The notes under the pieces are model-generated. The model saw only the letters and a list, made by a program, of their open reading frames with translations, did no database searches and was not told the origin of the DNA. A program made the translations under genes and the position numbers. Of a stretch of DNA of 64,000 bases, positions 597 through 41,230 are shown one piece after another. How positions within the stretch are numbered: the first letter of the stretch is position 1; each line of letters begins with the position of its first letter. The DNA is from Onthophagus taurus (taxonomy: Eukaryota; Arthropoda; Insecta; Coleoptera; Scarabaeidae): positions 13,833,501 through 13,897,500 of the forward strand of contig NC_091966.1 of the NCBI RefSeq assembly GCF_036711975.1, written 5' to 3'.

Positions 597-2950
597 TTAA
601 AAATGCATTTTAGGTCTACATGTGCACATACTTTCATGAATAACTCTACAATCAAAATTATCCAACATAAAATTTTGTACTCCTTCAGCTGTCACTTTGG
701 TGCCAGTAACATCCAACAAGGATAAACTTAAATGTTTCACATAATCCAATGCTTTATCAGTTACTCCATAACATCCTCTCAACGACAACTTCTTTAAACT
801 AATGTCGTTGTATTTTTCAAAAAACATATTGTCATACATTCCTGAAAAATAATTCATTATGATTAAGATTATTCTAAAAATACCTAACAATTAAACGTAA
901 TAAAGAAAAACATACATTTTATAATTAGAAAAAAAGATTGCAATAGAAGAAACTGAAAAATTTGTTGAGAGCGCAGTTTTCGCTTTGTTGGAAGCAAGAT
1001 AATAGGTAATTTGTTGTGACAACTAATAACTGTCGATTGTTCTTACACTAGCTGGGCAGGTAGAGGCCTAGTATATACTACAAGTAAATAGAAATGCTGT
1101 CTTATTGATTTCCAAAGCGTAAACTATGATATATCAAAAGGATTCCGCTTAGAGATATAGGTATTTATATGATGTATATAGATATGATATAGATATGTAT
1201 TGCACTCATCCTAACCTCTTTGTGCAGTAGAAACACTTATCTACACTTCAAATTTTTTTAATACTGGAAACCTTACTTAATTTACAATTTAGATGACTTT
1301 GCTACTGAGAGCTTCATTGTCAAAAAAGTAAAACTTATCCTTTTTGACATATGCCTAAGTAGTTTCCAAACAAAAGCTTAAATTTAAATGAAGTAGCACT
1401 AATTACTTAGAGACCTCTGCAAAATTTTTTTGATGGATATGTTAACCATGTTTTTAATACATAACCGTTATATAATATATACATACTTGCATTTCCACAT
1501 ACGCCCCTACGACGCTTTCGTTGCTCTCCTGGTACTTCTTTGATTGAAAGGCTGTTTATTAATAACAAACAACATAAAGTATTTTCCATCACAGCAATGT
1601 CTTTTTCACATTGATTTGGGTTTTCTAAAGCATTCGGAGAATTAGATTTACTTGTTCCCATCACATTAGAATTATCAGCAGGTTTAAGAGTGTAAATGTT
1701 ACCTCCCTTACAAACTTTTCGTACCTTGTCCTCATCAGAAACTGTTAATGTTTTTCTATCACTAGAAATCCTTGTAGCTGTGTTAGGATTATTTTGACAG
1801 GTACATTCATTGTAAGGCCTCTTGTATAAAATACTTTGAAAACTATAACTGTCTTGAATTGGTTTGGCTGAAGAATACAAATGAATACCACTGTCAGAAA
1901 GATGTCCATAAGGAGCCTTCTCAATTGTTGCTATGGGTCCAACAAAACTATGTAAGATGTCTTCATTCCAAAGTGCGATATCATCTAAATCAGAAACATA
2001 TGAATTTTTCAACCTTTTGCAGCCGTGAGCTATTTCTAATTCCCGTTCATCCCTCTCTAAGAAGTAAGTGGTGTGGTAGTCTTGGAAATAAATTTCTTGT
2101 ATCTTCGGCTTCTTAGAAAGATACTTTAAAAACATATCTCCCAGACCAGAAAAACGACAATCCACAATTCGCAAGTTTTGCATTGTCGAAATATTTAAAT
2201 CAACATCACACAATCCTTTACACTTATACAATGATACAATTTCTAGTGAATTTAACCATTGTAACACACTTAATATCCATTGGTTAACCCAGAAACACTG
2301 ATCCAATATTAACACCTACAAATATTTGAGTAACAAAAAAGTTTAAACGTTATATTTAAAAATTATACTTTTAAATATTTTAGTTTAACAAGACAGTTTA
2401 TTATCCCGGAAATATCAGTTATATATGTTTTTTTTAAACTCAGTTCTATTAAACTCTCAGGAAAATCGTTTAGTTTTAGCTAAAAATAATACCAAACCTT
2501 AGAACGATAAATGCTAAATACATAGAAACGACGAATATACCATATTTCCACAAATTTTTTGATTTTCCAATGCTAAAACCGTTAAGTTTAAAGTAGATAT
2601 ATTTAAGAAAAAGTAATCCGGAATTATTTTAAGGTGTCTGCCATCCGCACATATTCTAATATCCTTGGTGGAACCGGTAATGTTTTCAATGCAAAAATCG
2701 ATTTTTTCTCTGTTGTTTGAAACATCTCTAGCATCAATTTCATACCACAAACATTCAGTTTTAACCAAGTCGTGTAGTCGTTGACAAGTTCTTACGATAA
2801 AATAAGAAAAATAACAATATGGAAAATTAGATAACTAATAACTTACTGGCTCACTAACCATAAATCAGTTTTATTTAAATATCGAAATATATCTAACAAT
2901 GTATAATCGTTTAAATTCAAAATATTCAGTGAGGATGTGTTACAAGACAT
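597..2950 (-). CDS. Gene 1: F-box/LRR protein, form A (5 exons, 512 aa)
   Basis: Exons, in transcription order, are 2950-2847, 2790-2541, 2479-2369, 2315-1487 and 841-597. All have GT-AG borders and matching phases. Exon 1 plus the start of exon 2 gives an F-box (LNDYTLLDIFRYLN, continuing into TCQRLHDLVKTE). LRR strands follow across exons 2-4 (LTVLALENQKI, LIELSL, LEIVSLYKCKGL). A long insert with RPYNECTCQNNPN comes next, and the last exon holds LSLRGCYGVTDKALDYV and the CTCRPKMHF end. By family the role is an SCF ubiquitin-ligase adaptor; the substrate is unknown. Compared with gene 3, exon 3 lacks one codon and exon 4 lacks three, all in frame. The exon 4/5 junction reads Arg where gene 3 has Gly. 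A polyA signal (AATAAA) lies at 569-574, so the 3' UTR is very short. Confidence 0.82.
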
Positions 2951-3048
2951 TTTAAATACCACAATTTTTTAATTATTGTCAACACATGTTACTGCAAATA
3001 CAAAAATAACTGTGTAGAACAACTAATAACCATAAAGCATGAATAAGT

Positions 3049-3224: not shown

Positions 3225-4305
3225 TTTTTGATACAAGATAGCGAAATGACACGTTTTTTTTGCGAGCTTTAGCGAGCAAAAAAAATCGTTCGAGAATTCA
3301 AAAGAATTTTGCTGTCGTGTATCAAACAACATTTTTTCGAAAACTGCGTATACTAAAGTTATAAATTAATAAAAAGACCAAATTCTGTATAATGACATTT
3401 AGAATTCATTTAATGTTATGTCAAAAACTTAATGTCACATCGATTTAACCTCACTTATTGAACAAATGTACTATTATAAATTTGCATTTAAACGTGAAAT
3501 GAAATGATAAAACAATTAAATGTGGATTATTTTGTGTTTATAATTTGTTCATAACAATAAATTAACAATTAATAGTATCAAATTCTTTGATTGTCGTAGC
3601 TGGACGTAAAAGTCTTTTGCGTCCTGGACGTAATAGTATATTAAAAAACAAGTTTCGTAAGACATGCTTGAAATGCACGAATTCAAGTTGAAAAACGAGT
3701 GGCGAAGCCACGAGTTTTTTAATGAATGAGTGCTTTAAGTCTTATGAAACGTGTTTTTTATGCTATTTTTTGTAATTCGCGTTTTTATCCTTTTTTTTTC
3801 AAAAATAAAATAAATTTTGACAATGTAGGGAAATAGGTATGTACCAGTTGGTAATACCGTAACACTTGAAGATAGAAATTTGAATTGACAATTAGAAACT
3901 GTCAAAACACAAAATTTATTCACCTCACAAAAATGTTTCATGTACACCCACCCAAAATAAGAGAAATTGTTCAGTGTTCAATGTCCTCATCATTGTGGAC
4001 CTTGTATTCGATGCTAAGAACGTATTTAAACATCCATAGACAAAAATTGTCACATTGACAACTAGAAAAATTAATGAAGCAATGTCACCAACTTGAACTG
4101 GCTCCATAAAATGTTACTAAAATCTCATTACAGCATCGGATGCTGTAAGTAGTCTCATTACAGCACCCATTTGAGTACTGTTACAGCTTTCATTACCGTC
4201 GCGAATTACAAAAAAGACTTTTACGTCCTGTTGACAAAAAACTATCGTTTTGACGGTCGCTAAGTACTACGCAAAAGTCAACTTTTAATAGCTGTTTTCG
4301 AAAAA
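3225..4305. repeat. Insertion specific to unit 1, with foldback segments
   Basis: At the paralogous spot in unit 2 (about 17,910) the sequence runs straight through, so about 1.08 kb was inserted here or lost there. Inside are inverted segments: AAGTTTCGTAAGAC near 3,650 pairs with GTCTTATGAAACG near 3,738, around a small palindrome (GAGTGGCGAAGCCACGAGT) near 3,697. The motif GACTTTTACGTCC near 4,214 matches, inverted, GGACGTAAAAGTC near 3,602. No coding sequence is seen. It looks like a non-autonomous or composite repeat; the family was not recognised. Confidence 0.5.
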
Positions 4306-5881
4306 AGTATTTATTTGAATCAGTTCTCTACTATGATTAAAATGTATATTTATTTATAGATTTAACGCCCACAGTTGTGACGTTACTCTTGGAAATGAAA
4401 GAAGCATCATGGCTAGAACTATCAGTTGACTACGGCTAAATCCCTTTTTCATACATTAAGTTTTGAATTAAAGTAGTTGCACCTTAATTGTCGCTTACTA
4501 TAATTGGACAACCTCCTGTACAGATACTCGTTATAAATTGTTTTGGTTTATAAATATCGTGATACCCAATTTCCACTATGGTCGCCATCGCGGTTTGGAT
4601 TTGTATTCAATTTGCTTAAATGCGTTTTGATACTTCTCTATCCACAGTACAAAATGAATTTTTTATTTACATAAAAATCAACTCTATGATTTACTTTCTT
4701 TGCAAAATAGAAATTTTCAAAAATGTGCTATTTAAAGAAACAATTAATATTTCAACACCTTGTGTCTTTGTTGGAATAACGTTTAAAAGTCTGAAACTTT
4801 TAGTTAAATTCTTTACCATGCAACATACTGCTATAGCAATCCCACGTTTGAGATTTATCTGCACGCATAGCAGCAAGATTACAAATACACAAAGAAATGC
4901 ATTTTATTGACAAAAAAACAAAATACCTTTTTAATTAAAATAACAATTTTGCAGGAATTAATAACTAACACAAATAAAGGTACAGAGCCAATGTGGAACC
5001 ATTTCTTGCAAAAATTTGAGCACCGAGGAACAACAACGCCTATCATAATTATAAGTAGTGTCACCTCGCTTAGATTTAATCAGCTAATGCCGGTAATTCC
5101 ATCAAAACACATGAAGCTGGTCTTCAGGACTTCGAATTGAAGAACATCTCATCGAATTGGATACCTTGGAATCGAAGTTGAGTTCTATCCAGTATTAATA
5201 AAGTGTTTTGTGGATCCGCTGGAATTACCTGTCGTGTTGGGGTCATGTATTTATTCATGATATCAGTTCGTATTATGTGTTGTAGATGCGTTGATTCAGT
5301 GTCGATGAGAGCTTCATGAAGACTAACCAGAGGGATGACGTCAGTGATAGCTTTCATAAAGTTCCTCGGTAACATCCTAGTAGTATCTTTTCATTTTCCT
5401 ATTAGGCTTTGGGATCTTGTCATTGTAGGCTGGATTGAATGTCGGCAATATATCGAGCAAAAATTTAAATATAAAAAATTCTATTCGTGGTAACAATTAT
5501 TTACACTTGATATGTTAATTATAGATAAGTTATATTTAACACAGTTTTTTGTCCCCATGTATGGAGAACCATCTCACATAACCAGGAAATTTTGAAGCTT
5601 AAACTTTACCAAAAATATATCTTGTATAAATATGTTTTCAATATGGCTTTCTTCAGTGTTAAACGTATAAGAAACTAATTTCTAAAACTACCTTATTACA
5701 AATTTTAACGAGATGTGTGCGCGCAGACTGAACATGCCGAATAACTTCGTAAGTATCGTCACATATCAGCTATTATAAGTGCACAACCAAAGTATTTTTT
5801 TTCTTTCGGGTTCATTTTTATTACCAAGGATATTAATATTAGATTAAGATTTATTAAAATCCTCTAATTATAGTTACACTG

Positions 5882-8800
5882 CTAAAAATGCATGTTTGGT
5901 CTACATATGCACATAGTTTCGTGAATAACTCTACAATCAACATTTTCCAAAACAAAATTTTTAACTCCTTCAGCAGTTACTCTGGTACCAGTAACATCCA
6001 ACAGCGATAAATTTAAATGTTTCAAATGATCCAATGCTTTATCAGTTACCCCGTAACAGCCTCTCAGGGACAATTTTTTTAAACTGACGTCGTTGTATTG
6101 CCCTAAATAACGTCTCTCAGCCATTCCTGAAAATTAATTGATTATGATTAATAACATACTAAAAATACATAATAATTATTGATATTATGTTTGATTGTTT
6201 TTAATAAAAAAATGAGATAATATTTATAATATAATAGTTATTTATATTACAAGTGGGCTAGAAACATAATTACAGTACGAGTGTGGAGAATTGCACGACG
6301 AGGTCGTAGACCGAGTCGTATAATCACACGAGTACTGTAATTATGCTCTAGCCCACGTGTGATATACAGCATTTTATCTACGACTGCTAAAAATTACTAA
6401 AAAATCAATTTCTTTAGAAAAGTCTATTTGACATTAATTATAAAAATATTTTGAAATGATTGTTGACAATTTTGAATTGTCAGTTTAAACAACATGTTTA
6501 CTCATCTGGAATAAGTGTTTTGAAATCTAAAAACATAATAATTAATGTTTACAATAAATAGTATTGTTTCTCTGTAAGTAGATAGCACTTTTCTTTTGTA
6601 TTGTTACTCGTTTCAATAAATTAAGTCTGTTCTGATTAGGCTAAAAATGCGTTATTATTATTATTATTGCTGCCGGGCTGAGGAGGGCGGCCCCTCTCGT
6701 TACCGCGACCTATAAGATCTATTGTAACTTTAGCCCTCCAAAGGTTTAGGGCAAATGTAGGTCCTTAATGAACCTTAGTATTGTCCTGAGGTCTTGAACC
6801 TTTATGTCGGTAGGTAACAAGGGAGTTTTACCGAAGACGTTGTGCCTTAGACGTCCTCTGGCGACGCAATTGCACAGTATATGTTCAGCAGTTTCTGACT
6901 CGTCGTTGCATAGTCGACAAGTTTGATCCTCAGCTTGTCCAATGTGGAAGAGGTGGTATTTTAGGGGCACATGGCCGGTTAGGTAGCCTGAGAGCGTTCT
7001 TAGATCCCCTTTGCTGAGGCATAAAACCTCTTTGGTTTTGTTTTGCGACGGAGTTATCATACTCTTCGCTTGTCTGTGACCTGGAAGTTCTTTCCAGCGT
7101 AAGGCTATCTTTGAAGCCTCCCAGTTGTTGATTATTTCTTTTAGGTGGCTTTTTTGTAGTCCACATCCAGGTTGGGGTCCAATGAAGGGCGTGTTTGCTG
7201 CCTCTTTGGTAAAAAAAAAATGCGTTACGTAATGAAACCAGTGCGGTAATGAACTTCATTACGTAACTCAAATCACCTCAAATGAGTGCGGTAACGATGA
7301 CTTATCCAAGCAGTCGTAGATAAAAAAAAAATAAAAAAAAATAAAGTACATTTCTTATTATAAATACTATTAAAGCCAGAATTTATTCTTATCACTACAC
7401 GATTGCGAAAAGTCGGCAATCCCAGCATTCTGTCCGCTGGAAGACCAATAGGTGTGTGAAATGGCTTGTCAAACCATAAAAACTCTAACAAAAAATTGCC
7501 GGTTGCTCAAAGTCTATAGAACATAAGGTTACTCAATGCCGATTCTCCTCCTCTGAGAGGCAAGGTGGGTCGACGGGGTGACGTAGCTGGTTCTATGAAC
7601 AAACAACACGAGGCGAGGTTCAAATATTTTATATAGACTGTACCACAGTATAGGCTATCTTTTACTCAACTTTTTACTCTGACTGGATCGAACCAGTGAC
7701 GTCAATTTGCGGGGTAATAATCGATACTACAGAGGCATAGGGAATTAGGTAACCTTATGTTCTATAGACCTTGCCGGTTGTTAACCAGCTTTTAAGACAA
7801 CCTTTAATATATAAACCTTGCGTTGTAGACACTCTTACAAGTGTCTACAACAGACACTTACGACGAAAGCTATTGAAATTATTACGGGAATACTTTCTTT
7901 GGACCTTGTAACTAGAAAAAGAAGCGAGATGTACTAGAAAGAAATAATGAAGAATTGATAGGCAATGATATCCCGTCTTGGGGGTGAGTCACTGATAGAG
8001 AAGCATGCTGTGTTAGAGCACTGAGAATTTGATACTCAGAAGAATCGTGAAAGGAAGTGACGAGTCCACATCTTCTTCTACTTTTATTAAGACAAAACTT
8101 GTGTTTTCTGTTATCAATTATTAAGCTTCCTGAGAAGTTGTGATCTGCCGATCTGGGTATCCTTTACTCACATCGCTCATCTGCCGTTCCCTATTTTATC
8201 GACATATATATGTCTCTCCAGAACCTTCGTCTTGATTTTGTGAATATTAACATACGTAGATATCCGGTTATTCTCGTGTTATAGCACTCCTAATCTGGCC
8301 ACCTAGCGTTACTCCTTAAATCGATCGCAATTTCTATCCTTCTAACCATACTGTTTGTTTTAGAAGTCTCTGCCTAAGTTTCCAATGCGTATGGTCCTAT
8401 AATACACTTGTAGATTCGGCCTTTACTTCTGTTGACATGTAATTATTTTTCTAGATAAAGTCTTTTAAGGTACAATATATATTTTGTGTGATTGGTTTAT
8501 CACTAGGGCACGGAACTTTTGTAACGGAACGATACGATTTACCCCCACCACTTGTTATCTAGAAAACAAGTCGGTGGCGTCAAGTCAACTCGCCTCATCG
8601 GTTGTTGTTGACGACCGACAATCGGTTTATTACACGTCAGTGTCAACTGTCAGTACGATTTGAAAATATTAAAAAAATATATATTTTATAACTTTAATTC
8701 AAAAAAACATGATCCGATTTGTAATATCAATCACAAATCGGATACGGATATAAAAAAATTGCTGTTAACGCATATTGAAACAACCATCCCTAAATTTTCT

Positions 8801-11362
8801 TCTGTAAATGACGTTCTAGTTGACGTTAAAATGAGTTTGTACCTAGAAAATAATCTTTCAACATCACAACTTGTAAATGGAGCATAAATAAAATACTGAG
8901 CTATTGAACCATATTTTTCCTTAAGAGTTAAAGGTATATTGTTTTCGGCAATTTGTTGAACAATTCTCAAATCCGAACAACAATTTTACCACAAAGGGAA
9001 ACTAAAAACAATTCTTAAAAAAACAATAATACGAACTCAAACAGAACTCCAACTTCCAATTAAAGGTAACTAAAGAAAGATAAATAGCAAATTTGACGAA
9101 ATTATGCGGATGAAAAGCGTCGAATACTGCACATTTGGACAACAGTGAAATCGTACTGACAGTTGACAATGTTGACATTGATGCAATAAAAAACCGATCG
9201 TCGGTCGTCAATAACAACCGATCATTTTCTAGGAGAACAAGTGGAGGGGGTAAATCGTATCGTACCGTTACAAAAGTTCCGGGCCCTATTTATCACATAG
9301 CGTCATCTTGGAGAAATGTTCCTCCCTTGTTCTTATTTGTTAGCCAATTTTATTGTTATTTTATAAACTGTTTGCATCGCTTTTTGCACCTGTCCCGTCT
9401 ATCTGTCCCATCTTCTCTTATCTCTTCGCGCTGATTGCTTCACTTGTTTATTCATATTATATAGTTGTAGGACTAATTGTCTTTTAGCTTCGTTTCCGAC
9501 GGCTGCGTTTAGTCTAAGTTTAATGTTCTTTCTCTGATTGATGGTCTCCTCTCCTTTCTCAGCAACAATTCCTCTGTCTCATGCAGTCTCCTCTTGTATT
9601 GCGGCCATCTTTCTACTTGAAATTCATTTCTGGCTTCATTCCAATGGTCGGAGTTTTCTTTGATCCTTCTCTTGAATACTCGGAGTACAGATACTACGTA
9701 TACGTATACGTACACAACATATACGTACCTGCATTTCCACATATGTGTATCTTATGAGGCTCTTGATATTCTAACAATCACAAATTAAAAATTTTAAGTA
9801 AAAATGAAGAGAACAAGCAATGATGAAAATATGACTTACCGTTGCTTTCTATTGGAGAGTACCGCCTCCAAAGAAAAGATCCAGGCACGTCCATTATATA
9901 AAAATCTCTCGGAGGTGCCCACCACCCTGAAATAGTTTTCTATTAACATTTACGATAAAAATATAGTTTAAAATAGCAAACAATGTGAACTATGTTCTAA
10001 CAGAGCGATGTCTTTTTCATTTTGATTTGGGTTTTCTGAAATATCTGCAGAATTTAGTCTACTTATTCCCATCATTTTAGAACTCTCAGTAGGTTTAAGT
10101 GTGTAAATAAATCCTCCTTTACAAACTTTTCGTTCGATATCGTCATCAGAAACAGTTAATTTTTTTCTTTCAACAACAATCCTTGCAGCTATGTTAGGAT
10201 TATTTTGACAAGTACATTCATCATATGGCCTCTTATATAAAGTGCTTTGAAAAGTATAACTGCCTTGAATTGGTTTGGCTGAAGAATACTCCTTGATGCT
10301 AGTTTCAGATAGATGTCCATACGGAATTTTCTCAATTGTAGAAGTAGGCCCAACAAAACTGTGTAAAATATCTTCATTCCAAAGAGCGATATCGTCAAGA
10401 TCAGAAACATAACTATTATTTAATTTTTGGGAACCATCAGCTACTTCTACTTCGCGTGCGTCCTTTTCCATGAAATATGTAGTGAGATAGTCTTGGAAAT
10501 AAATTTCTTGTACCTTTGGCTTTTTAGCGAGGGATTTTAAAAATATATTCCCAAGGCCAGAAAAGCGACAATCCACAATTCGCAACGAATCGAATTCGTT
10601 CCTTACACTTAACTCAACATCATATAATCCTTTGCACTTATATAGTGATAAAATTTCTAGTGATTTTAACCATTGTAATCTATCTAGTATAGAAAGGTTA
10701 ACCCAGAAACACTGATCCAATATAAATACCTAAAAATATTTTAATTATTGAATAATTGAGTAAAATGAGTAAAATTATAATACTTTTAAATTTTTTAATT
10801 GCTCGGGATAGTATTTTTGCAATTCGAACGTATTTGTTACATAAGTCTTTTTTAAACTCAATTCGATTAAAGTTTCTGGAAAATCTCTTAATTTCAACTA
10901 AAAAACAGTAAATCAAAAAAGATAAATGTAAAAATGTAAGATAATACCATATTTCCGTCAATTTTCATATTTTCCAAAGCTAAAACCACCAGATTTAAAG
11001 TAGATATATTTAAGAAAAAGTTATCCGGAATTAGTTTAATGTGTCTCCCATCCGCACTTATTCTAACATCTTTGGTAATATTGGTTATTTTGTCAATGCA
11101 AAAGTCAATTTTCTCATTATTGTTCGTAAGATCTCTAGCGTCAATTTCATACCATAAATATTTAGTTTGAACGAAGTCGTGTAATCGTTGGCATGTCCTT
11201 ATATGAAAACACGAAAGGTGTATGTATCGCAAAAAACAACTAAAATCAAATAACTTACTTGCTTATTAACCATAAATCATTGAAATTTAAATATCGAAAT
11301 ATATTTAATAGTGTGTAGTCATTTAAATCTAAAATATTCAGTTTGTGTGTATTAGATGACAT
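5882..11362 (-). CDS. Gene 2: F-box/LRR protein, form B (7 exons, 529 aa)
   Basis: Exons are 11362-11259, 11197-10948, 10897-10784, 10729-9982, 9926-9840, 9770-9729 and 6126-5882. Exon 1 starts MSSNTHKLNILDLNDYT and forms the F-box with exon 2. Exon 4 contains RPYDECTCQNNPN and VCKGGFIYTLKP. Exon 5 (87 nt) encodes a Trp/Pro-rich WWAPPRDFY segment, exon 6 encodes EYQEPHKIHICGNAG, and exon 7 the C-terminal LRR and CICRPNMHF. All phases agree, but the exon 4 donor is weak (GTTTGC). Reading past it would stop within four codons and drop the C-terminal LRR. Intron 6 is about 3.6 kb and filled with transposon insertions. The polyA signal is at 5850-5855. The protein is almost identical to gene 4. 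Its likely role is an SCF substrate adaptor, inferred from the F-box. Confidence 0.8.
6253..6356. repeat. Long hairpin, about 100 bp
   Basis: Arms beginning TGGGCTAGAAACATAATTAC and ending in the inverted GTAATTATGCTCTAGCCCA face each other around a GC-richer core with CGAGGTCGTAGACCGAG. The hairpin lies at the left of a block (about 6,226-7,340) absent from unit 2. The motifs CGACTGCT at about 6,382 and AGCAGTCG at about 7,309 may be the inverted ends of a larger element enclosing the retrotransposon fragment. The family was not recognised. Confidence 0.5.
6645..7215 (-). mobile_element. 5'-truncated non-LTR retrotransposon, RNase H/zinc-knuckle end
   Basis: On the minus strand a reading frame of about 150 codons ends at 6746. 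It contains INNWEASKIALRWKELPGHR, TKEVLCLSKGDLRTLSGYL and the Cys/His cluster CRLCNDESETAEHILCNC. That order is typical of the RNase H-like C terminus of jockey/R1-type insect non-LTR elements. A run of AAT triplets at 6,651-6,666, downstream of the stop, fits the 3' tail. Only the 3' end is present, as expected of an incomplete reverse-transcription copy. It sits in intron 6 of gene 2 and is absent from gene 4. Confidence 0.75.
7509..7769. mobile_element. Short inverted-repeat element (hAT-like MITE)
   Basis: The ends are inverted copies of GTCTATAGAACATAAGGT (near 7,511 and 7,746). TTGCCGGTTG occurs on both sides, a target duplication of about 8-10 bp. Unit 2 has a single copy of the corresponding site at about 20,100. 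No coding capacity is seen. TSD length and the CAA(A/G)G-like ends suggest the hAT superfamily; the exact borders are uncertain by a few bases. Confidence 0.6.
8504..9288. mobile_element. Non-autonomous hAT element, 785 bp
   Basis: The 8-bp target duplication TTTATCAC lies at 8496-8503 and 9289-9296. Unit 2 has the empty site TTTATCACATAGCG at about 20,836. The termini TAGGGCACGGAAC and its inverted match (TAGGGCCCGGAAC) extend into inverted repeats of about 170 bp. Inside, minus-strand 8970-8731 encodes a fragment with SCDVERLFSRYK and SFTEENL, the hAT transposase C-terminal dimerisation region. This is a deletion derivative that inserted in intron 6 of gene 2 after the block duplicated. Confidence 0.88.
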
Positions 11363-11455
11363 TTTAAATAATATGTTTCTTTAATTGTTGTCGTCAGGTA
11401 TTACTACAGATATAAAAATAGCTGTATAAGTAGTAATCATAAAACACGAATAAGC

Positions 11456-11464
11456 AATAAGATA
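11456..11464 (-). promoter_or_regulatory. Variant GATA motif upstream of gene 2
   Basis: AATAAGATA stands where the other copies have GATAAGATA, about 94 bp upstream of the start at 11362. The first GATA is lost by one base change; the second (11,461-11,464) remains. Confidence 0.3.
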
Positions 11465-11839
11465 TAGATTTTATCACACACCCGTTTTAGATCGAGATTT
11501 CTTATAATTAATTAATCCACTCCATAAGACAATGCGGTGATTTATTAACATTACAATGTCAACAACATATTTTTATGGCTTTGTCTACGGAAGGCTCTCA
11601 GTTTCTTATGCAAGGTGACATATGCATATAGAGCATCAATTTGTTCAATATTTGACGATTTAGCTTTTTTAGCCATCCAAATTTGACAGTTTCTAGAAAA
11701 TATATAAACTGAGAAAGCGCTTCAGTTCACATAACACATTTTATTTATGTAATATTATTCTCTTTTGGAACACTTTTCCTGCGAAACATTCAGCGTGTTA
11801 TGGATGTTGTACTTCTATGATCAATCAATTTTATTTTAT

Positions 11840-12125
11840 CACAAACAATTTAAGTCACCCCTCGTTTTTTTGGTTTGGCTTTTTTCTTGTCCAATTTTCC
11901 AATTTAACATAACGTCTTTTAAGTCCTTCCCTCTTGTTGCTCTTTTTGGTGCCGTTTCCAATCCACGTAGTGTTTCATAATTTTCATCTTCCACATTTTC
12001 AGTTTCTGGAATAGCATCATCACTTATCCAATTCCAGTCATCATTATCAGATTCTGTGTTAACTTCATTTCTGTCCTCATACGTTTGTTCTTCGTTTTGA
12101 ATGTTATCTTCATTTCTGCTTCAAT
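11840..12125 (-). pseudogene. Degenerate acidic open frame, unidentified
   Basis: The minus strand encodes an acidic stretch (NTESDNDDWNWISDDAIPE) followed by a basic one (TAPKRATRGKDLKDVMLNW), ending at a stop near 11,842. An in-frame TGA interrupts it upstream, near 12,120. The paralogous copy at about 23,580-23,870 lacks that stop but is frameshifted after DDWNWI. The different lesions in the two copies show that neither is intact. The parent gene was not recognised; a transposase or a host nuclear protein are both possible. Confidence 0.4.
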
Positions 12126-12613
12126 AATTTACGTTTCCAGGATGTCATTTTTAATGGAGGTATTGCAATCAAAGCCTAAATAGAAAAACTAATCGGTATT
12201 ACAATATATGCTCCGCTTGAAGCTTAGAATAAATTTTGTTTTTTATACAAAGTGGGTATGTATAACTTAACGTATGAATAAACTCGTTCTCAGAAATGTT
12301 TTTACTATTAATGATTTGATTAAGAATCAAGCATCTCTCCAAAACATACTTTGTACGCCTATTGATCTCAACCCAACCCAACCCAACAATAATTTGTTTT
12401 CCAAAGCCAAATGTGCAAAAAATTATTCCCAAAACCACCTCACAATATATGTTAACTGGATATGTGCGTGTATATCTCTGGTTAATCTCTAGCTTATGTA
12501 TGCGCATAACTTTTATAAGATTTATAATGCATCTGCAATATTTTCAGTTGTATGAAGGACATTGATATTAAATTACAAGATTAATACCTTTATTGAAATC
12601 ATTAGTTACAGTG

Positions 12614-17634: not shown

Positions 17635-17732
17635 TTTAAATATTACAATTTTTTAATTATTGTCAACAGATGCTACTGCAAATAGAAAAATAACTGTATA
17701 CAACAATTAATAACCATAAAACATGAACAAGT

Positions 17733-26672: not shown

Positions 26673-26771
26673 TTTAAATATTACAAAGTTTTTAATTATT
26701 GTCAACAGATGTTACTGCAAATACAAAAATAACTGTATAAAACAATTAATAACCATAAAACATGAATAAGT

Positions 26772-26780
26772 GATAAGATA
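26772..26780 (-). promoter_or_regulatory. GATAAGATA motif upstream of gene 5
   Basis: The motif lies 100 bp upstream of the start at 26672, equivalent to genes 1 and 3. Confidence 0.45.
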
Positions 26781-28242: not shown

Positions 28243-31200
28243 CTAAAAGTGCATTTTTGGTTTACATGTACACATAGTTTCATGAATAACTCTACAATCA
28301 ACATTCTCCAACATAAAATTTTGAACTCCTTCAGCTGTTACTCTGGTACTAGTAACATCCAACAAGGATAAATTTAAATGTTTCAGGTGGTCCAATACTT
28401 TATCAGTCACTCCGTAACATCCTCTTAGGGACAACTTTTGTAAACTGACATCGTTGTATTGTCGAAAATAATTTCGTTCATACTTTCCTAAAAATAATTC
28501 ATTATGATTAATAACAAGTTAGAAATATATGGTAATTAACTACTGATTAAGAAATATTGATTTAATATGATTAATGTAGTATGTATTACAATGATAGATA
28601 TTGGACAAATTGTTGAATCATTGCTTCGAGAAAAAGCTAAAAGCAAAGATAAGCAGAATGAAAAAAGAAAATATGGAAACGGAATGAGAAGTGAAGATAC
28701 CAAGATAATAAGATGTCGAACAGAAGCCAATATAAAAAATACTTTGCTAACTAAATTTCGTATCTAAAAGTACAACCCCCAGAAAGTTTATATGCTGATG
28801 TATTATTTTTCTTGTGTTTTATGTAAAAGGTTTTTATTTTATTTCCGTTTGACCAGTTTACGTCGAACCATTTTCTTGGTTTAACGATCGTTTTATTTGT
28901 TTTGTGCAGCTATACCAAGTTTTATGCTAATAAAATAATTGTCGTCTTCATATAAGCATCTTGAATTTGTTAGTATGTTTTTAATTGAGCTTCTTCGTCT
29001 TTCAGTCTACTTGCTGCTATTTATATTAAAGATATGATACAATTAGTAGCTGTGTATTTTCATTTACACTGTAAGTTATCACTTTCTTTTAATATATTTG
29101 GTGACTGACTTCTTATCTGGTTTGTAATCACGTTGGTATTGGCTATATTTTGTTCAACTATATGTTATAGGGTTTTACTCTTTCTTGCAACTTTACAGAT
29201 ATTAGATATTGTCGTCAAGACGGTAATTGATTTCTATATTATATAGTTATTCGGGTCTCCTAGTGTTAAATTACGGCGGATTTTGCATATAAGGTTATGT
29301 AGTTGTTAGCTTTTTGTCAATTCCATTTTTTATTTTAGCAATGGTAGAATCCAGGTTCATCGGAAGTTTCATAATGTAAATAAAAATCTTAAATACGATG
29401 AAAATGTTTGATTCTATTTACATATCGGTGCTACAAATTGTTTCAGAAACCGACAGTTTCCTTCTTCAGGCACGACGTCAAGTGTTTATGAGCCATTTTT
29501 TATTGTTTCTGTAAGTACTTAACTTCTAGGTCGGTTTTGATTTTAATTTCTGCTAATGATGCTGGGTCAACATTGTTTTCTTATCAATTGCAAACTAGAC
29601 GATTTTATTGCCGTAGCTGTTGACATTAATATACATATATTACTTTGATATGATGTTAAGCTGTTCATTCTTTTGCGCAATAGATGCCGAATCCAATAAT
29701 TGACATAAGTAACTTGGTTGAGTTGATAAAATATCTGTTCGATTTACTTCATCTATTCAGTTGTTGTTGATTGCGGAAGGAACATCTGTATCTAGAGGAT
29801 TTAACGCCATAATGTAATCAGGATTGCCGAAAATTTTGACAAAGGTAATCAATTTCTTTCCAATTGATTTGTTAAATTCATTGACGACTGTGTCAATAAT
29901 GAAGTCGTAGTAACTTCTGAACCATCAACTCTCCAGAAGTTACTAATCACAGAGTAATTAGATATTATTGAGGCAATTGCATTATCAATAAGGATACTAA
30001 TCAATTCATGCAAGAAATAAAGGGTATATAATATATAAAGAAAAGTTATAAGAAAACGTTATCAACTTTCAAACATTTTGCAACTGGCTACTAGTTCTAG
30101 TTAAATAACGTTAGATTATCCATACATACAAAACATATAAATACCTGCATTTCCACATCTAAATACGCTATAAGGTTCTTCATACTCTAAAAATCATAAA
30201 ATAAAAAAGGTTTAAGTGCTAATGATGACAATAAACCAAGATGAAGATATAACACACCGTTTCTTACTGCCATCCTATAGTAATATTCCGGGGATTGAAG
30301 CGTACCTGAAAAAATGCTCTCCTTTATTTTTTTTAAAACAAAAATTATTTAACAATAACAAACGATGTGATTTATGATCCAAAACAACGATATCTTTTTC
30401 ATTTTGGTTTAGATGTTGTAAAATATTATCAGCAGAATTAGATTTACTTGTTTCCATCACGTTACACGTATCGGTAGGTTTAAGAGTGTAAATATAACCT
30501 CCCTTACAAACTTTTCGTTCCATATCTTCATCAGTAACAGTTAATGTTTTTATATTTGAAGGAATCTTAGCAGTTAGGTTACGATTGTTTTGACAACTAC
30601 ATTCATTGTAAGGTCTCTGGTATAAAACGCTTTGGAAGGTATAATTTTCTCGAATTGGTTTGGCCGAAGAATACAATGTTATACTACTTTCTGAAAGATG
30701 TCCATACGGTATTTTCTCAATTGTAGAAGTAGGCCCACCAAAGCTACGTAAAATATCTTCATTCCAAAGGGCGATATCGTCAAGATCGCAAACATAACTA
30801 TTTTTTAATTTTTGGGAACCGTCAGCTACTTCTAGTTCACGTGCACTCTTTTCCAAGAAATATGTAGTAAGATAATCTTGGAAATAAATTTCTTGTATTT
30901 TCGGCATTTTGCTAAGGCACTTTAAAAACATATTTCCAAGACCAGAAAATCGACAATCCACAATTCGTAATGAATGGAAGTCTTTCATTATGTCTAATTC
31001 AACATCATATAATCCTTTACACTTATACAGTGATAAAATTTCTAGGGATTTTAGACATTCTAATCTGTACAATATATATCGGTTAACCCAGAAACATTGA
31101 TCCAATATTAGCACCTAAAAGTAGTTGAGTAAATGAAAAATGTTAATAAGCCATTAATCAAACCATAATACTTTTAAATTTTTTAATTGATCAGGGTAAT

Positions 31201-31774
31201 ATTTCTGCATCTCTGCCGTATTTGTTACATATGTTTTTTTCAAACTCAATTCTATTAAAGTGTCAGGAAAATCTTTGAATTTCATCTAACAAATAAAAAG
31301 AAACCTCAAAAAAATAAATGTAAAATATACAAAAATATAAGAAAATACCATGTTTCCAGAAATTTTCTGATTTTCCAAAGCTAAAACCGTTAACTTTAAA
31401 GTGGATATATTTAAGAAAAAATGATCCGGAATTATTTTAATGTGTCTCCCATCCGCACTTATTCTAAAATCTTTGGTGGTATCGGTAATTTTTTCAATGC
31501 AAAAATCGATTTTTTCACTGATATTGGAAACACCCCTAACATCAATTTCATACCACAAACATTTAGTTTCAACGAAATCGTGTAGTCGTTGACAAGTTCT
31601 TACGTTAAAAAAAAGAAAAGTTATAATATGTTGCAATAAAATAATAAAAAAAACTTACTTGCTTACTAACCATATATCAGTAAAGTTTAAATATCGAAAG
31701 ATATTTAATAGTGTATTTTGGATTTGAACGATTATCAAATCCAAAATATTCAATTCGATTGAATTAAAAGCCAT
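28243..31774 (-). CDS. Gene 6: F-box/LRR protein, form B (7 exons, about 521 aa)
   Basis: Exons are 31774-31659, 31598-31349, 31285-31172, 31114-30364, 30305-30258, 30186-30145 and 28487-28243. Exon 1 is 12 nt longer than in its paralogues because a small inverted segment replaced part of the F-box start; the frame is kept and NTLLNIFRYLN survives. Exon 4 holds RPYNECSCQNN and VCKGGYIYTLKP. Exon 5 is 48 nt instead of 87 but in the same phase and encodes SPEYYYRMAVRN. Exon 6 encodes YEEPYSVFRCGNAG. The last exon starts KYERNYFRQYNDVSLQKL and ends CTCKPKMHF. The proposed exon 4 and exon 5 donors (GTTTGT, GTGTGT) are weak, so those two junctions are the least certain. AATAAA is at 28,211-28,216. 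Confidence 0.72.
28490..30140. other. Intron 6 of gene 6: nothing identified
   Basis: This is about 1.65 kb of AT-rich intron. Short open frames occur on both strands, but none has recognisable domains. Near 29,430-29,480 a string with TTTCAGAAACCGACAG and TTCCTTCTTCAGGC resembles dispersed-repeat ends, but no borders could be set. Confidence 0.4.
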
Positions 31775-32338: not shown

Positions 32339-34431
32339 TCAAAAATGCAATTTAGGTCGACATCTGCACATAGTCTCATGTATTATTCTACAGTCAACAT
32401 TTTCCAAGGCAAACTTTTGAATCCCTTCCTCAGTTACTTTAGTACCAGTAATATCAAGCAACAATAAATTTAAATGCTTTAAGAACTCCAATGTTTTATT
32501 GGTCACACCATCACAACCTCTAAGTGACAACTTTTTTAAACTCACATCGTTTTGTTTTTTTAAATAACGCATATCATCCCAACCTGAAAAATAAAGACTG
32601 TAGTTTCGAAAAAGTTGAAATCCGGTTGCGCAAAAACTATATTGTATACCTGCACGTCCACATCGATATACTCTACAAGGCTCGTAGTAATCTAAAAGTC
32701 AAAATAATGAGAAATGATTTATAATTGTAAATTCCATGTATAAATTTTAATTATAAGATGTATTTAATGGAACCGATCTATGAAAAGGGTTAACACATTC
32801 GCTGCCACGAGGGTCCCATAGGACCAACACAAAAGTTGCACTACTATTGTTCCACATCACCATAGAAGTAGTAATTATAATACTACCTCATTGAGATGAT
32901 GAAGTCAGCGAATGTGTTAAGTAGTAAGTTTCAATTAAAGAAAATTTTGTTACCTTTACATAGTCCTTCTCTATGATAAGTAGGTAGGAGTCCTCCAGGC
33001 CTTATCATCCTGAACCATAGTCTAGGAAGCTTAATCCAAGCTAAAACAGTATTCGATTTAAATCTTTTATATAAAAATTAATTTAACAGTAACATACAAG
33101 GTGAGGTATGTTCTAGTATAGCGATGTCTTTTTCACTTTGATTAAATTCACTTATTTCCGTGTTATTAGCTTGCTTAAGAGTGCAAATATATCCCCCATT
33201 ACAAGTCATTTTTTCAATGTCTTGATCAGACACAATTAATTTTTGTTCGTTAAAAGGAGGTGTTGTTACTAAATCAGGATTATTTTGGCAAGTGCATTTT
33301 TCATAAGGTCGCTGATATAAAAGGCTGTGGAAATTATAATTTTCATCAATTGGATTAGCGGTGGCGTATAACTCTGTACTAGTTTCGGTTAGATGTCCAT
33401 ACGGAACTTTTTCTGTTGTAGAAGTAGATCCAACAAATTTATGTAAAGCGGTTTCATTCCATAAAGGGATATCGTCATTTTCGGTTATATAAGAATATTT
33501 AAAATTTTTGGATTTACTATTTTTAATTTCCATGTCGCGTGCGTTCTTTTCCACAAAATATGTAGTGAGGTAGTTTTGAAAATAAATTTCTTGGACTTTT
33601 GGTTTTCTAGCAAGGCTTTGTAAAAAGAAGTTTCCTAGGCCAGAAAATCGACAATCCGCAATTCGTAACTGATTAAAGGTCTGTATCATTCCCAATTCAA
33701 CATCGTACAATCCTTTACATTTGTACAATGATATAATTTCTAAGGATTTTAAATCTCCGAATCTGTGTAAAATTTTTCCGTTAACCCAACAACACTGATC
33801 TAATATTAACACCTAAAAATATATAAATATAATACTAAACACTGATTGTGAGTTCAAATTGTAAAAGTACTTTTAAATTTTTAAATATGTCAGGATTATG
33901 TTTTGAAAATTCAGACGTATCTGCAATATATGTCTTTTTCCAACTCAATTCTATTAAACTTTGGGGAAAATCTTTTAGTTTGATCTAAAAAATAAAAGTT
34001 AACATTAAAAATATAAAATTTCTATACACAAATACTTGGCTTCCATAGATTTTCTGGTTTTCCAAGGCTAAAACTGTTAAGTTTAAAGTAGAGAATTTTT
34101 CGAAAAAATAATTAGGAATGATGTTAGAATGTCTTCCATCAGCACATATTCGTACATCTTTGGTAGAACTTATTATTTTTTCTATACTAAACACAATTTT
34201 GTTATCTATTTCAATTTGGTTCCATATTTGTTTAGTTTTAATAAAATTATGAAGTTGCTGGCAAGTCCTTTGGCGAAAATAGAAAGATATATTGCATAAA
34301 TAATTAAGATTTAAAATAATTACTTACATGCTTAATAACCATAAATCAGTTGAATTTAAATATCGAAATATATCCAATAATGTATAATCGTTTAAATTCA
34401 AAATATTCATTGTGGATATATTACTAGACAT
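32339..34431 (-). CDS. Gene 7: F-box/LRR protein, form B (7 exons, 512 aa)
   Basis: Exons are 34431-34328, 34267-34036, 33984-33871, 33812-33098, 33040-32954, 32691-32650 and 32583-32339. The F-box reads LNDYTLLDIFRYLN, and exon 2 continues TCQQLHNFIKT. Exon 2 is 18 nt shorter than in the others, in frame. Exon 4 carries RPYEKCTCQNNPD and MTCNGGYICTLK and ends at a good donor (GTATGT). The 87-nt exon 5 (SWIKLPRLWFRMIRPGG) matches gene 2's WWAPPRDFY exon in length and phase, which fixes the acceptor at 33,041. Exon 6 gives YYEPCRVYRCGRAG and the end is CRCRPKLHF. Intron 5 contains a 123-bp TTAA-flanked element. AATAAA occurs at 32,314-32,319 and 32,323-32,328. The gene is compact and more diverged than genes 1-6. 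Confidence 0.8.
32794..32916. mobile_element. 123-bp TTAA-flanked MITE (piggyBac type)
   Basis: TTAA lies at 32,790-32,793 and 32,917-32,920. The termini are CACATTCGCTG and its exact inverse CAGCGAATGTG. The TTAA duplication is the hallmark of piggyBac superfamily insertion. It lies in intron 5 of gene 7 and has no coding capacity. Confidence 0.75.
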
Positions 34432-36293: not shown

Positions 36294-39200
36294 TTAAAAA
36301 TGAAGGGTTGGTAGGCATGTGCACATAGTTTCGTGTATAATCCTGCACTGAACATTGTCAATAGCAAATTTGATAAGACCTTCAGTAGTTACATTGGTTC
36401 CTGTTACGTCCAGCAACAATAAATGTAAATGGGTTAAATGTTGTAATGTTGCATCGGTTATACTATTACATCCTCTAAGCGAAATTTTTGTTAAACTCAC
36501 ATTATTGTAGTTACTAAAATATTCATCTTCGCGTATACTTGTTGCCATATGTTTCCTCACTTCTGTAAGTATACAAATGTAACATTGAAGTACAAATATA
36601 CCAATCAAAATATCTTATATTCCATACTTGCGTATCCACACCAAGCTTGAACCCTGCGTCGTGTACGTCTACAATAACTTGCTGCATAAAACATAAAAGT
36701 GAGAGTATGATACATGATGTTACGTACAACAGTAAATATCTCAAAAATTAAGCTTTCTTTAAATGTATAACTAAACCATTGTTTAAACATTTTTGTAAAA
36801 CAATTCTGTACATTTATACACGTATTTCTGTTGTATTTTAAGCTGTGTTAATGCTTCTACTAGATATCTTAATATGGCTGACTTTGTAATTGGAGAACTT
36901 CGCTTTACTTATTTACGTCAAAATACAATTGTTCTGATATAAATATATTATTGCAAAAATGATTGAACAGATTTCAAAGCTGTTTCTTTTTTCAGAAAGG
37001 ATGAATTATACGATATAGGCATAATTGTGTTGGGTGCCATATTAATTAACGTAAAGAAAACGGAAACTGGCCCATCTACCTCCAACTTGTTTATGGCTAT
37101 AGCCTTGGCATTTAACCTATAGGTTGAATATATATAGGTTAACCTGAGGTTGAAAGCGTTGAAGGAGGAACCAAGTTTTTGATTATTGAGAAATAATTTC
37201 CAATGGCAGCTTCTCCATTGGATTTGCTATTTTAGTATTTCCACTGGGAATTTGTCCAATTACAAGATCTAGTTTAAATTTCCAATAAAGGTACTCCAAT
37301 AGATCTTTAATCGCAGTATCTCAAACGATAGTATCCCCATCAGATTTCGAACAAATTTTCAATATTAAACTAAAATTAGAACTAAAACTAGAACTAACAC
37401 TAGAAACTTTCACACCGGCCGTGAAAGCCTTCGTACTTAAATTTTCAATAATTGTATTCTAGTGGACCTGAAATTACAGTATTTACAATGGATGTCCAAT
37501 ACTACTATTTCCAATGAATGTTTTGTGTTAGTAACTCCAATGTATTTTCCATGGAGATTGTTGAATGAAATTCCAATGATAATATGCACAACAATAGTTC
37601 TCCATTGAGATAAGGATGACCCATGCCAGAATAGTCTGTGACAAGATCTCCAGTTACAACGAATCTTTACGAAGGTCTAATGGATGTCTAATACACAATA
37701 TTGGCTCTCCAAGGAACTCAAATGGCAGCAAATCCAATGGGTATTCTATTCAAATATTTGCAGTTACAAAATCTCTAATGCAAAAATTTCCAATAATGAT
37801 TACCTACTGGACGACATGCTGCTGATTGTCGTCCATTGTCGTCCATGATAAATTGTCATAAAAGGTGAACGAGTTCAAATTTTAATATTTAATTTTTAGT
37901 TAATACCAAATTTAATAAGACCTTCAGTAGTTACATTGGTTCCTGTTACGTCCAGCAATAATAAATGTAAATGGGTTAAATGTTCTAATGTTGCATCGGT
38001 TATTCTATTACATCCTCTAAGCGAGATTGTTAATAAACTCACATCATTGCATTTACTAAAATATTCACAATAATGTTCCCATTGCCTTTCTCTCTCGCTA
38101 TATCGTAACACTGCGAGCATACAAATGTATTATTGAAGTATAAATGTATCATCGAATTGAAATATCTTACAATTGAAATATCTTTTCATACTTGTACGTA
38201 TCGACCCCCTATGAGGTGAACGAAAATAACTTCATGTATCAAATATAAAAAAGAGGTTATTATACATTATGTTAGCTACAGCAGTAAATATCTATCTCAA
38301 AAATTAAGGATTCTTTGAATATATATAACTGAAGCATAGCTTAAACATTTTTGTAAAACAATTCTATATAATTATATACGAATTTCTGTTTGTCTTTTAA
38401 GCTGTGTTAATACTTCTATTACTTGTCTTCTTCTCAGTCAGAATCTCCTATTCGACAATCGTGCTGTTATGAATAATTTTTTGTGTTATGTAATATTTTT
38501 TAACGTATACCATCCATTTTGATATTTTTGCATCATTTCTAGAATATGGTGATACCTACACTCGAACTGATCAGAGAGTATACTTTTTGGTGTTTGAATA
38601 ATACCAGATTTATTAATGTTAAATCAATATAGATTGTACTTTTTTGGTTTATTTTGATCGAAACGAGGAAGGTGCAAGTACTGGCGTATGCCGACGACTT
38701 AGTAGTGACCGCGAAGGAGGTGGATGAGATGAGGACAATGATGCGATCTCTGGAAAGGTATTTTAGGGGGAAGGATTTGTAGACAACGAAGACAAAACGA
38801 AACTGATGAAGTTCTATAAAGGGGGTCGAAGGAAGACTGACGACTGGAGATGGAAGGAGAGGGTGACCGAGGAAGTGAGGGAGTACACATACTTGGGGTA
38901 CAGATTTAAAGAGAACAACAAGGAAAGCGGACATATTAAAATGTTGGCAGCGAATAAGGTTATAGGACAGAGAAAGATGTGGGAAATGGGAAAATAATGT
39001 TTGTTAACTTGATAAAAAGCGTTATGATGTATGAGGTGGAATTATAGAGATTTAAGGAGCAAGGGCACTTAGAGGATGTGCAAACCAGGTACTAGAGGTG
39101 GGTGTTCGGGTTGGCTAGGAAGACACCGGAATATATAGTTAGAGAAGAAATGAAGGTAGATAAGATGAATGTGGAGGTGGGTAACCGTGGGGTGCGTTTT

Positions 39201-41230
39201 GAGAAGTGGAAGGAAGGGTGCATTGTAAAATCTTGGCGAAGTGCTGCAGAGAGATTGAGGCAGGAAAGGATCGTTATGGGCAGCGAGAAATGGAGGAATA
39301 AGAAAGGAGGGGATTGAGATGTGGAAACAACTGGAGAGCAGGAACAGGGATATGGAAATGCAAAAGAGAGGGACGCGGAGGTAAGGGAAAGTAGGTATAA
39401 TCTAAAATATGGCGAATGGGGGAGGTGGTGGTAGCGAGGAGACAGGTAGAGGCCATGGAAAGGGATATGAATTACATTAGCTATTGATATTGTAGTTTTT
39501 AAATTATAACTTATGGGAAACAATAAATTATTATTAACTATTTTACTACAATCAATTGTCAAAATTTGTCAATGGGTTAAAAAAGATTATGGTTTAAGAC
39601 TTTAGAATTAATTATAAATATTTTTTCTCATTTCACAAAGTAACACTAAACCTCCAACAAGTTAAATATTAACAACGTGTTGTTCGCCTACAAGTCAATT
39701 AAGTGAGAATACTAGCTGGATTACAATACTTTTAAAAACCTTATAATTTTCTCAACATTTCTAGTGTGATATCTTCAAAACCATTGTTTTTGAGATATCC
39801 AGTTTAAAGGGATCTATTCTATTAAAAATAAACATTATAATGATTATTATACTTACGATCTATAAGTTCTTCTATAGCGATATCTTTTTCACTTTTATTA
39901 GCATTTTCTAATTCATGTGTAAAACATGCTGGATCGAGTGTATACAAAATATCATCTTTACAAACATATTGATCCATTCTATCGTCATGGTTGATTTCAG
40001 ATTTTACATTGGCAACTGCAAGTCCAGTCGTTGAATTATATTCACAGGTACATTCATTATACGGTCTCTTGTACAGTACACTCTCAAAATGATAATTATC
40101 TTCAATATAGTTGGAATGTGTATAACGTTCCGTACTTCTATCAAAAAGACTATTACAATGGTTATACATTTCATTAGTATTCACGTTACTTCCAAAATAA
40201 GAACGTAAGACGTTTTCATTCCAAAGAGGAATGTCGTCATGGTCCTTAATGTAGGAATGTTTTAACCTTCTCGATCCAGATGATATTTCTAGTTCACGAC
40301 GATGTTTTTCAGGAAAATATGTGGTGAGATAGTGTTGGAAATAAATTTCTCTAATTTTAGGCTTCTTTGATAAATTTTTCAAAAACATATTCCCTAAACT
40401 AGAGAATCGACAGTCCATAATTCGTAATTCGTGGAAACCTTTTATTATAGACATGTCTACTTCGTTAAGTGCTTTACATTTGTATAGAGATAGAATTTCT
40501 AACGAGTAAATATACGCAATTCTATTTGTCAATATATTACTAGTAATCCAACAACACTGATCTAATATTAATACCTAAATAACACAGATAAGTTACTATA
40601 TTAATTACTCTTATACAAGTAAATACTTAACTTTTAACTTCTTCAATTGGTGATCATAATATGTTAAAAATTCGTTTATTTCTGTAATATAGGTTTTCTT
40701 AAGACTTAATTCCATTAGATTTTCGGGAAAATGTTTCAGCTGTATCTAAAACACGCAACAAAATTTAAATGCACTAAACAAAGTGATTTAATCGACATTA
40801 AAAATTACGTCGTTGCCACATATTTTCTGATTTTCCAAAGCCAAAATTGTAATACTGGCACGATTTAAATATCGAAAAAATGTACTTGAAATTATTACAA
40901 GATGTCTTCCATCAGCACATATTCGAACGTCTCTTGTAGCCTGATTACATTTTTGCGCACAATATTCAATTTTCTCAACAGTATTTGGTGAGTCGCGTGC
41001 ATCAATATAACGCCAGAAACATTCTTTTTCTATAAGATCGTTTAAACGTCCACAAGTTCTTATAGTAACGTAACCGGTAATGAAAATACAAAGTTACATA
41101 AAATTAAAAATATTAAGAATATATCTTACTTGCTTAACAACCACAAATCAGTTGCGTTTAGAAATCCAAGTATTTCTAGTAATATGTAATTGTTTAAATC
41201 TAGAATATTGAATGTAGATGAATTAGACAT
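36294..41230 (-). CDS. Gene 8: divergent F-box/LRR protein (6 exons found, about 501 aa)
   Basis: Exons are 41230-41130, 41058-40809, 40745-40632, 40574-39857, 36681-36628 and 36562-36294. The F-box (LDLNNYILLEILGFLN) continues into TCGRLNDLIEKECFWRYIDA. Exon 4 begins VLILDQCCWI and has LEILSLYKCKALNEVDMS and RPYNECTCEYN. It ends at a strong donor, GTAAGTAT. No counterpart of the 87-nt exon 5 was found, but exons 4 and 6 join in phase without it. Exon 6 (ASYCRRTRRRVQAWCGYA) keeps the CG-x-A motif and is basic. The last exon gives LRGCNSITDATLQHL and CTCLPTLHF. The 3.2-kb intron 4 contains a retrotransposon fragment and a duplicated copy of the last exon. It has no GATA motif upstream. It is probably the oldest branch of the array. 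Confidence 0.68.
36870..37850. other. Intron 4 of gene 8: CCAAT-rich degenerate repeats
   Basis: Dozens of short variants of TCCAATGGA or its inverse occur (for example near 37,199, 37,217, 37,540 and 37,736), too diverged for a clear period. A small tandem stretch of CTAGAACTAAAA-like units lies at about 37,370-37,405. No coding signal is seen. Confidence 0.4.
37896..38110 (-). pseudogene. Duplicated, truncated copy of gene 8's last exon
   Basis: The acceptor GCTCGCAG at 38,111 is followed by an in-phase frame: LRYSERERQWEHYCEYFS, then LRGCNRITDATLEHL and LLLLDVTGTNVTTEGLIKF, ending GIN-stop. The conserved Cys tail of the family is deleted. The flanks (36,110 with 37,855; 36,750-36,870 with 38,300-38,420) show that a whole 3' segment of gene 8 was duplicated in tandem. 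The matching exon 6 copy near 38,190-38,240 is damaged. Splicing exon 4 directly to this exon would keep the frame. No AATAAA follows closely, so use as a real terminal exon is doubtful. Confidence 0.65.
38640..39480 (+). mobile_element. Non-LTR retrotransposon fragment (RT C-terminal part)
   Basis: The plus strand reads VLAYADDLVVTAKEVDEM at about 38,676-38,729, the YADD catalytic motif of a reverse transcriptase. It continues as EVREYTYLGYRFKENN (38,872-38,919) and, in other frames, a tail with KEGCIVKSWRSAAERLRQER. The region is noticeably less AT-rich than its surroundings. Frame breaks make it a pseudogene. It sits in intron 4 of gene 8. Confidence 0.75.

Follow-up and report, generated by a model that had tools for sequence, protein, structure and literature searches.

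An array of F-box/leucine-rich repeat (LRR) genes lies on contig C1 (NC_091966.1) of the scarab beetle Onthophagus taurus. The window analyzed is a stretch of 64,000 nucleotides (C1:13833501-13897500), and the genome searched consists of 290.8 Mb in 33 contigs. Eight paralogues (A-H, Table 1) lie head to tail on the minus strand between window positions 597 and 41230 and are transcribed from right to left. The gene models were built by hand, using the paralogue alignment and the splice sites. Every model has a length divisible by three, no internal stops, and GT-AG introns in phase; the genes consist of five to seven exons and encode proteins of 501-529 amino acids (aa). An earlier note on this DNA had described eight intact, phase-consistent paralogues in one orientation, and all eight open models agree with it; the limits it gave for the array are exact, 597 being the stop of A and 41230 the start of H. 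Pairs of window genes align at 64-98% DNA identity over 0.7-2.9 kb (listed pairs, E<=1e-20), hence their paralogy is not a matter of chance.

The array continues beyond the window. Three intact copies, I, J and K (529, 517 and 529 aa), adjoin it directly to the left of base 1, so that the eight genes counted in the earlier note are the window's share of an array of 11. Genome searches found at least 13 family loci with exon 4, at least 13 with exon 2 and at least 14 with exon 6, the 14th exon 6 match being an orphan exon adjoining H. Eleven of the 13 loci are in the array, at C1:13814574-13874730; the other two are intact singletons, M (517 aa) on contig C6 and N (590 aa) on C16. From the left, the order is I (type 2), J (type 1), K (2), A (1), B (2), C (1), D (2), E (1), F, G and H. 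Thus, the paralogues are in tandem, as the note had it, but they are not equal repeats: four alternating pairs (I-J, K-A, B-C and D-E) stand beside three older genes, F, G and H.

Exon 1 together with the beginning of exon 2 encodes the F-box, and exons 2-4 encode the first LRRs. A long insert at the end of exon 4 is followed by two small exons, 5a and 5b, and by exon 6, which encodes the tail as well as the last LRRs. All seven exons are present in B, D, F and G, and six in H; a fusion of exons 4 and 5b is seen in A, C, E and J. The 11 array genes share an intron separating exon 3 from exon 4 that is absent from M and N. In N, a single exon takes the place of exons 3-6 and includes a long insert of polar residues. 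The orphan copy adjoining H has a TAA that truncates exon 6 before the conserved Cys tail; it may serve H as an alternative last exon, but it looks decayed. The last introns of two genes contain repeats. That of B includes a retroelement remnant at 6746-7255 (zf-RVT, E 2.5e-5, just below the cut-off), and the self-alignment of the window lists no stretch in D as matching this remnant. That of C includes, at 13094-14573, an inverted repeat pair of ~300 bases, 93.7% alike, with the arms ~0.9 kb apart.

Table 1. Features of the array in the window. Exons are listed in the order of transcription; for genes A-H the higher coordinate of the span is the start codon and the lower one the end of the stop codon.
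Feature	Span	Strand	Exons	Protein (aa)	Remarks
Gene A (type 1)	597..2950	-	2950-2847, 2790-2541, 2479-2369, 2315-1487, 841-597	512	
Gene B (type 2)	5882..11362	-	11362-11259, 11197-10948, 10897-10784, 10729-9982, 9926-9840, 9770-9729, 6126-5882	529	
Gene C (type 1)	12614..17634	-	17634-17531, 17474-17225, 17161-17048, 16992-16155, 12858-12614	516	
Gene D (type 2)	19435..22907	-	22907-22804, 22742-22493, 22441-22328, 22273-21526, 21470-21384, 21314-21273, 19679-19435	529	
Gene E (type 1)	24327..26672	-	26672-26569, 26512-26263, 26199-26086, 26030-25193, 24571-24327	516	
Gene F	28243..31774	-	31774-31659, 31598-31349, 31285-31172, 31114-30364, 30305-30258, 30186-30145, 28487-28243	521	F-box with a 4-residue insertion
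Gene G	32339..34431	-	34431-34328, 34267-34036, 33984-33871, 33812-33098, 33040-32954, 32691-32650, 32583-32339	512	
Gene H	36294..41230	-	41230-41130, 41058-40809, 40745-40632, 40574-39857, 36681-36628, 36562-36294	501	most diverged array gene; exon 5a not identified
Orphan partial 3' copy	37899..38429	-			degenerate exon 5b and exon 6; 75.8% to 36357-36870
Two-gene unit, copy 1 (B + C)	4302..17850				right edge approximate; windowed identity
Two-gene unit, copy 2 (D + E)	17896..26900				right edge approximate; windowed identity

The F-box is recognized by profile scores. Both Pfam models, F-box (PF00646) and F-box-like (PF12937), match all eight window proteins at E<=0.1, the best match being 3.7e-9. 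Scores were compared with the curated cut-offs for five members (A, F, H, M and N), the Pfam scans as a whole covering A-H, M and N. Full-length A, in which the F-box begins at residue 10, scores 34.6 bits with F-box-like (cut-off 24.3) and 24.7 bits with F-box (cut-off 20.5). The first 246 residues of F score 28.7 and 22.6 bits with the same two models, both above the cut-offs; the first 116 residues of H score 31.5 bits with F-box, also above; and full-length M and N likewise have an F-box above the Pfam cut-offs. A genome search with the PF12937 model gave at least 34 matches above the cut-off, which are spread over many contigs with just two pairs of near neighbours and include none of the 13 loci of the array family, in which an intron interrupts the F-box. 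Among viral contigs, 97 stretches fit a search pattern and none was confirmed as a relative.

The repeats are degenerate. About eight LRRs, counted by eye, appear as a repeat pattern in the paralogue alignment. A profile search of the PDB with the eight proteins matched FBXL2 (E 6.1e-5) and FBXL5 (8.5e-4) and, weakly, KDM2B (0.077), KDM2A (0.2) and SKP2 (0.41); a PDB search with a single exon gave no matches. The family profile aligns with the LRRs of FBXL2 and KDM2A/B, and the match to FBXL5 is best on the F-box. The FBXL adaptors (FBXL2, FBXL5, SKP2), the closest solved structures by profile, likewise have an N-terminal F-box followed by Cys-type LRRs. The array proteins differ from them in that the LRRs are degenerate and are split by an insert with an invariant CxC, and in having a conserved Cys tail; the likeness is at the level of the sequence profile, and no named FBXL emerged as an orthologue. 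In the array genes the insert is 149-161 aa long, and the tail after the last LRR reads C-x7-C-x-C-x-P-x-x-H-F. Five cysteines of insert and tail are invariant in all 13 genes, including the diverged M and N: in A these are residues 326 and 328 (the CxC) and 496, 504 and 506 (C496-x7-C504-x-C506). A sixth (A 357) is kept in 12 of the 13 genes and a seventh (A 428) in 11. Among E, D, F, G and H, the insert has three cysteine columns, all of them invariant, as against 39 of its 144 ungapped columns overall; throughout the protein, too, cysteine is well kept (12/17 columns invariant, compared with 181/475 for all residues).

A two-gene unit, type 2 plus type 1, was duplicated and its copies later exchanged sequence. 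The B-C unit matches the D-E unit (Table 1), the boundaries being read off identity windows. B and D are 98.4% identical over 2.27 kb, and exons 1-4 of C and E are 96-99.5% identical per 200 bases; upstream, successive windows fall to 92, 81, 90, 87 and 87%. Beyond 17896, what lies upstream of C is 95.5-99% identical to the upstream sequence of A (from 4302), as against 81-90% to that of E. Unequal crossing-over between the 5' flanks of type-1 genes would leave just this pattern in C, an E-like body with A-like upstream sequence. To the left, the J-K stretch is 96.1% identical to the C-D stretch over 4.2 kb, and I is 97.3% identical to K over 2.5 kb. The stretch made up of the A-B intergenic region and the final exon of B is 98.0% identical to its J-K counterpart and 95.9% to its C-D counterpart; A is 88% identical to C and E, gaps counted. 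The informative sites are mosaic as well: in exon 6, eight group A with J against C with E and two set A apart alone, whereas in exons 1-4 the numbers are 4 and 61. Between B and D, one part has 10 differences in 1600 sites and the other has 26 in 665 (p 1e-7, the split having been placed once the windows had been seen). In the tree, the type-1 genes group as (A,((C,E),J)) and the type-2 genes as ((B,D),(I,K)), followed by F, G, H, and then M and N, with support of 72 for C-E-J, 80 for C-E and 87-100 elsewhere. The tandem expansion of an intact F-box/LRR family proposed in the earlier note is thus borne out by the pair structure and by long repeated stretches 88-98% alike. A lineage-specific expansion, for which the note gave a check, is possible, 11 of the 13 loci of this one genome being in a single array.

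Selection on the array is mostly purifying: old copies are held, and young type-1 copies are relaxed. Codon models were run with our own script (GY94-type, F3x4; not PAML) with exons 5a/5b excluded; those for the 11 array genes used 480 codons, with columns with more than three gaps and genes M and N excluded. With a single ratio (M0), omega comes to 0.199 over the eight genes of the window and to 0.219 over the 11 of the array, far enough from 1 to conclude that the array is not decaying, the check that the earlier note had put forward. A pseudogene array was considered and dropped, there being no stops and an omega of about 0.2. By branch (11 genes), omega is 0.181 on old branches, 0.475 on recent type-1 branches and 0.299 on recent type-2 branches, both recent classes being below 1 (p 3e-4 and p 7e-7, respectively).

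The note had also supposed that the family keeps its F-box and diverges in the LRRs. Over old splits this does not apply: the parts with LRRs rank among the best conserved, which is not true of the F-box. In the codon models the C-terminal exon, with the last LRRs, has the lowest omega and the F-box the highest. For eight genes the values are C-terminal exon 0.15, LRR 0.18, residues 53-118 0.18, insert 0.22 and F-box 0.28; for 11 genes, 0.15, 0.20, 0.19, 0.24 and 0.35 in the same order; and for the old branches of the 11 genes, 0.12, 0.15, 0.18, 0.20 and 0.32. Counting over all ten pairwise comparisons among E, D, F, G and H gives LRR 0.14, residues 53-118 0.24, C-terminal exon 0.24, F-box 0.28, insert 0.34 and exons 5a/5b 0.82, the last in part reflecting non-homologous alignment, exons 4 and 5b being fused in A, C, E and J. 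On recent branches (type 1 and type 2, respectively) omega is 0.12 and 1.59 for the F-box, 0.53 and 0.23 for the LRR, 0.71 and 0.35 for the insert, and 0.49 and 0.28 for the C-terminal exon. The F-box is therefore the most constrained part on recent type-1 branches, where the note's wording is apt, and the least constrained on recent type-2 branches, where the value of 1.59 rests on few changes.

The array most likely encodes ordinary substrate adaptors of the SCF (Skp1-Cullin-F-box) ubiquitin ligase. These are probably intracellular adaptors of the F-box/LRR (FBXL) type, whose cluster grew by serial tandem duplication that included the type 2 plus type 1 unit. From what is established for the FBXL family, the N-terminal F-box would dock on Skp1, and a substrate for ubiquitination would be held by the LRRs, the insert of ~150-160 residues with its CxC pair, and the Cys-rich tail. 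Unequal crossing-over at the homologous 5' flanks of type-1 genes would be the simplest route of duplication, with sequence exchange between copies coming later; old copies are kept by purifying selection, and young type-1 copies are under relaxed constraint.

Several observations weigh against these models and this interpretation. i) The usual F-box consensus starts with Leu-Pro; here the start is mostly I-L-D-L or I-L-N-L. ii) The Pfam LRR matches in the window genes (LRR_14, LRR_6, LRR_4 and others) are all sub-threshold, and in M and N no LRR model matches at E<=0.1. iii) The exon 4 donor is non-consensus, GTTTGC in B, D, I and K and GTTTGT in F, so exons 4-5a may be mis-modelled. iv) The junction at 17693-17902 upstream of C is close to neither presumed parent, 87.5% to A and 92 and 81% to E; being no closer to A than to E, it does not fix the exact crossover point. 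v) C and E differ by 27.5 non-synonymous and 5.5 synonymous changes (dN/dS 1.24), meaning that constraint is not yet visible in the youngest pair.

A different account is near-neutral birth and death, in which unequal crossing-over keeps yielding redundant dosage variants that have no new roles and look intact because they are young. The tips C and E together have an omega of ~1.0 (eight genes), constraint is weaker in the type-1 clade than on old branches, and a truncated exon copy persists next to H. However, B and D have a dN/dS of 0.17, the recent type-2 branches are likewise significantly below 1, and F, G and H are old yet intact. Birth and death of this kind is possible as an account of the whole array, and we consider it clearly the less probable one.

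A role in defence or self/non-self recognition is also possible for the array genes. The more specific proposal of an arms-race set, in which copies diversify at the LRR surface against changing foreign or rival proteins, an idea put forward for other expanded F-box/LRR sets, appears unlikely. In its favour, model M8 fits the 11 genes better than M7 (p 6e-4) and M8a (p 0.001), with 2.9% of sites at omega 2.5. Three of the five codons with posterior >0.8 are in LRRs (B residues 169, 172 and 197; the others are 453 and 454, at the start of exon 6), and residues 172 and 197 are each nine past an LRR cysteine (163 and 188) of adjacent repeats. However, M2a is not favoured over M1a (p 1.0 for eight genes, 0.22 for 11), the overall omega is low and, over old splits, the parts bearing LRRs rank with the most constrained. 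Moreover, the copies are mosaic, which can inflate site tests, the script is non-standard, and dS to H is near saturation. The site tests disagree and, given the mosaic copies, the site-level signal is a lead; of the fast-evolving defence set suggested in the earlier note there remains this weak and mixed signal. Expansions of F-box/LRR genes are known from other insects: 232 genes are reported for the aphid parasitoid Aphidius ervi and 68 for Lysiphlebus fabarum, for which the authors propose immunity or an arms race (PMC7257214). The likeness extends to lineage-biased copy number and a GC-poor genome; the present genome differs in having 13 loci, 11 of them in one array, and the likeness is one of kind. 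The beetle array is a small, intact case of this published kind of expansion, sound and not unusual. Its value is that of a clean case of insect F-box/LRR growth, with a two-gene unit copied, mosaic copies and constrained LRR-bearing parts. Since most change here fits purifying selection with relaxed young copies, arms-race claims need per-copy tests.

The invariant cysteines of insert and tail raise another idea, that the proteins are metal- or redox-sensing SCF adaptors in which these cysteines may serve as ligands of Fe-S or zinc and control the capture of substrate. FBXL5 has an N-terminal hemerythrin domain and, at the C-terminus of its LRRs, a Cys-coordinated [2Fe2S] cluster; its Cys tail gates substrate capture. 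Its LRRs also contain an internal loop, and the last of them is followed by cysteines whose spacing differs from that in the array proteins. No hemerythrin domain was found in A-H, M or N (Pfam, E<=0.1, where F-box and LRR families alone matched). FBXL5 is described as binding IRP2 through the distal end of the LRRs (PMC7729025). The array proteins compare with FBXL5 through the profile match noted above, and conserved cysteines are what they show of such a cluster. Metal sensing seems improbable; if it were true, FBXL5-like gating would have been reached without hemerythrin and then amplified and tuned in an insect array.

A signal peptide is a feature of the SSGP-71 family of the Hessian fly. 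The N-termini of all 13 models are polar and run straight into the F-box, and no signal peptide was seen in any of them, reading the N-termini by eye only, with no predictor run. The SSGP-71 effectors are likewise an insect family with an N-terminal F-box and C-terminal LRRs, described as typically 13 in number, and they act in the plant, where they bind host Skp proteins (PMC4617103). That the beetle genes encode secreted effectors of this kind, hijacking host Skp1, is very improbable: they too are a tandemly expanded insect set with an F-box followed by LRRs, but no secretion signal is apparent by eye, most of the protein is constrained, and there are 13 loci as against the large numbers reported elsewhere.

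To the right of the array the window contains two further repetitive features. A transposon-like element at 45455-48003 has inverted repeats of ~500 bases, 94.6% alike, which flank an open frame of 378 aa (45979-47115) that matches DUF4817 above the cut-off and DDE_3 weakly, below the cut-off. A tandem array at 51490-52674 consists of 6.3 copies of a 190-base unit with 89% matches. The motif TTGGG has been reported from a lacewing, a damselfly, a bee and several beetles, among them Apoderus coryli, Anoplotrupes stercorosus and Onthophagus taurus (PMC12564400, PMC8233369). Telomere-type TTGGG repeats are present at four of the six ends of the contigs that carry the family (C1, C6 and C16); one of the remaining ends is all N, and the other is without repeats.

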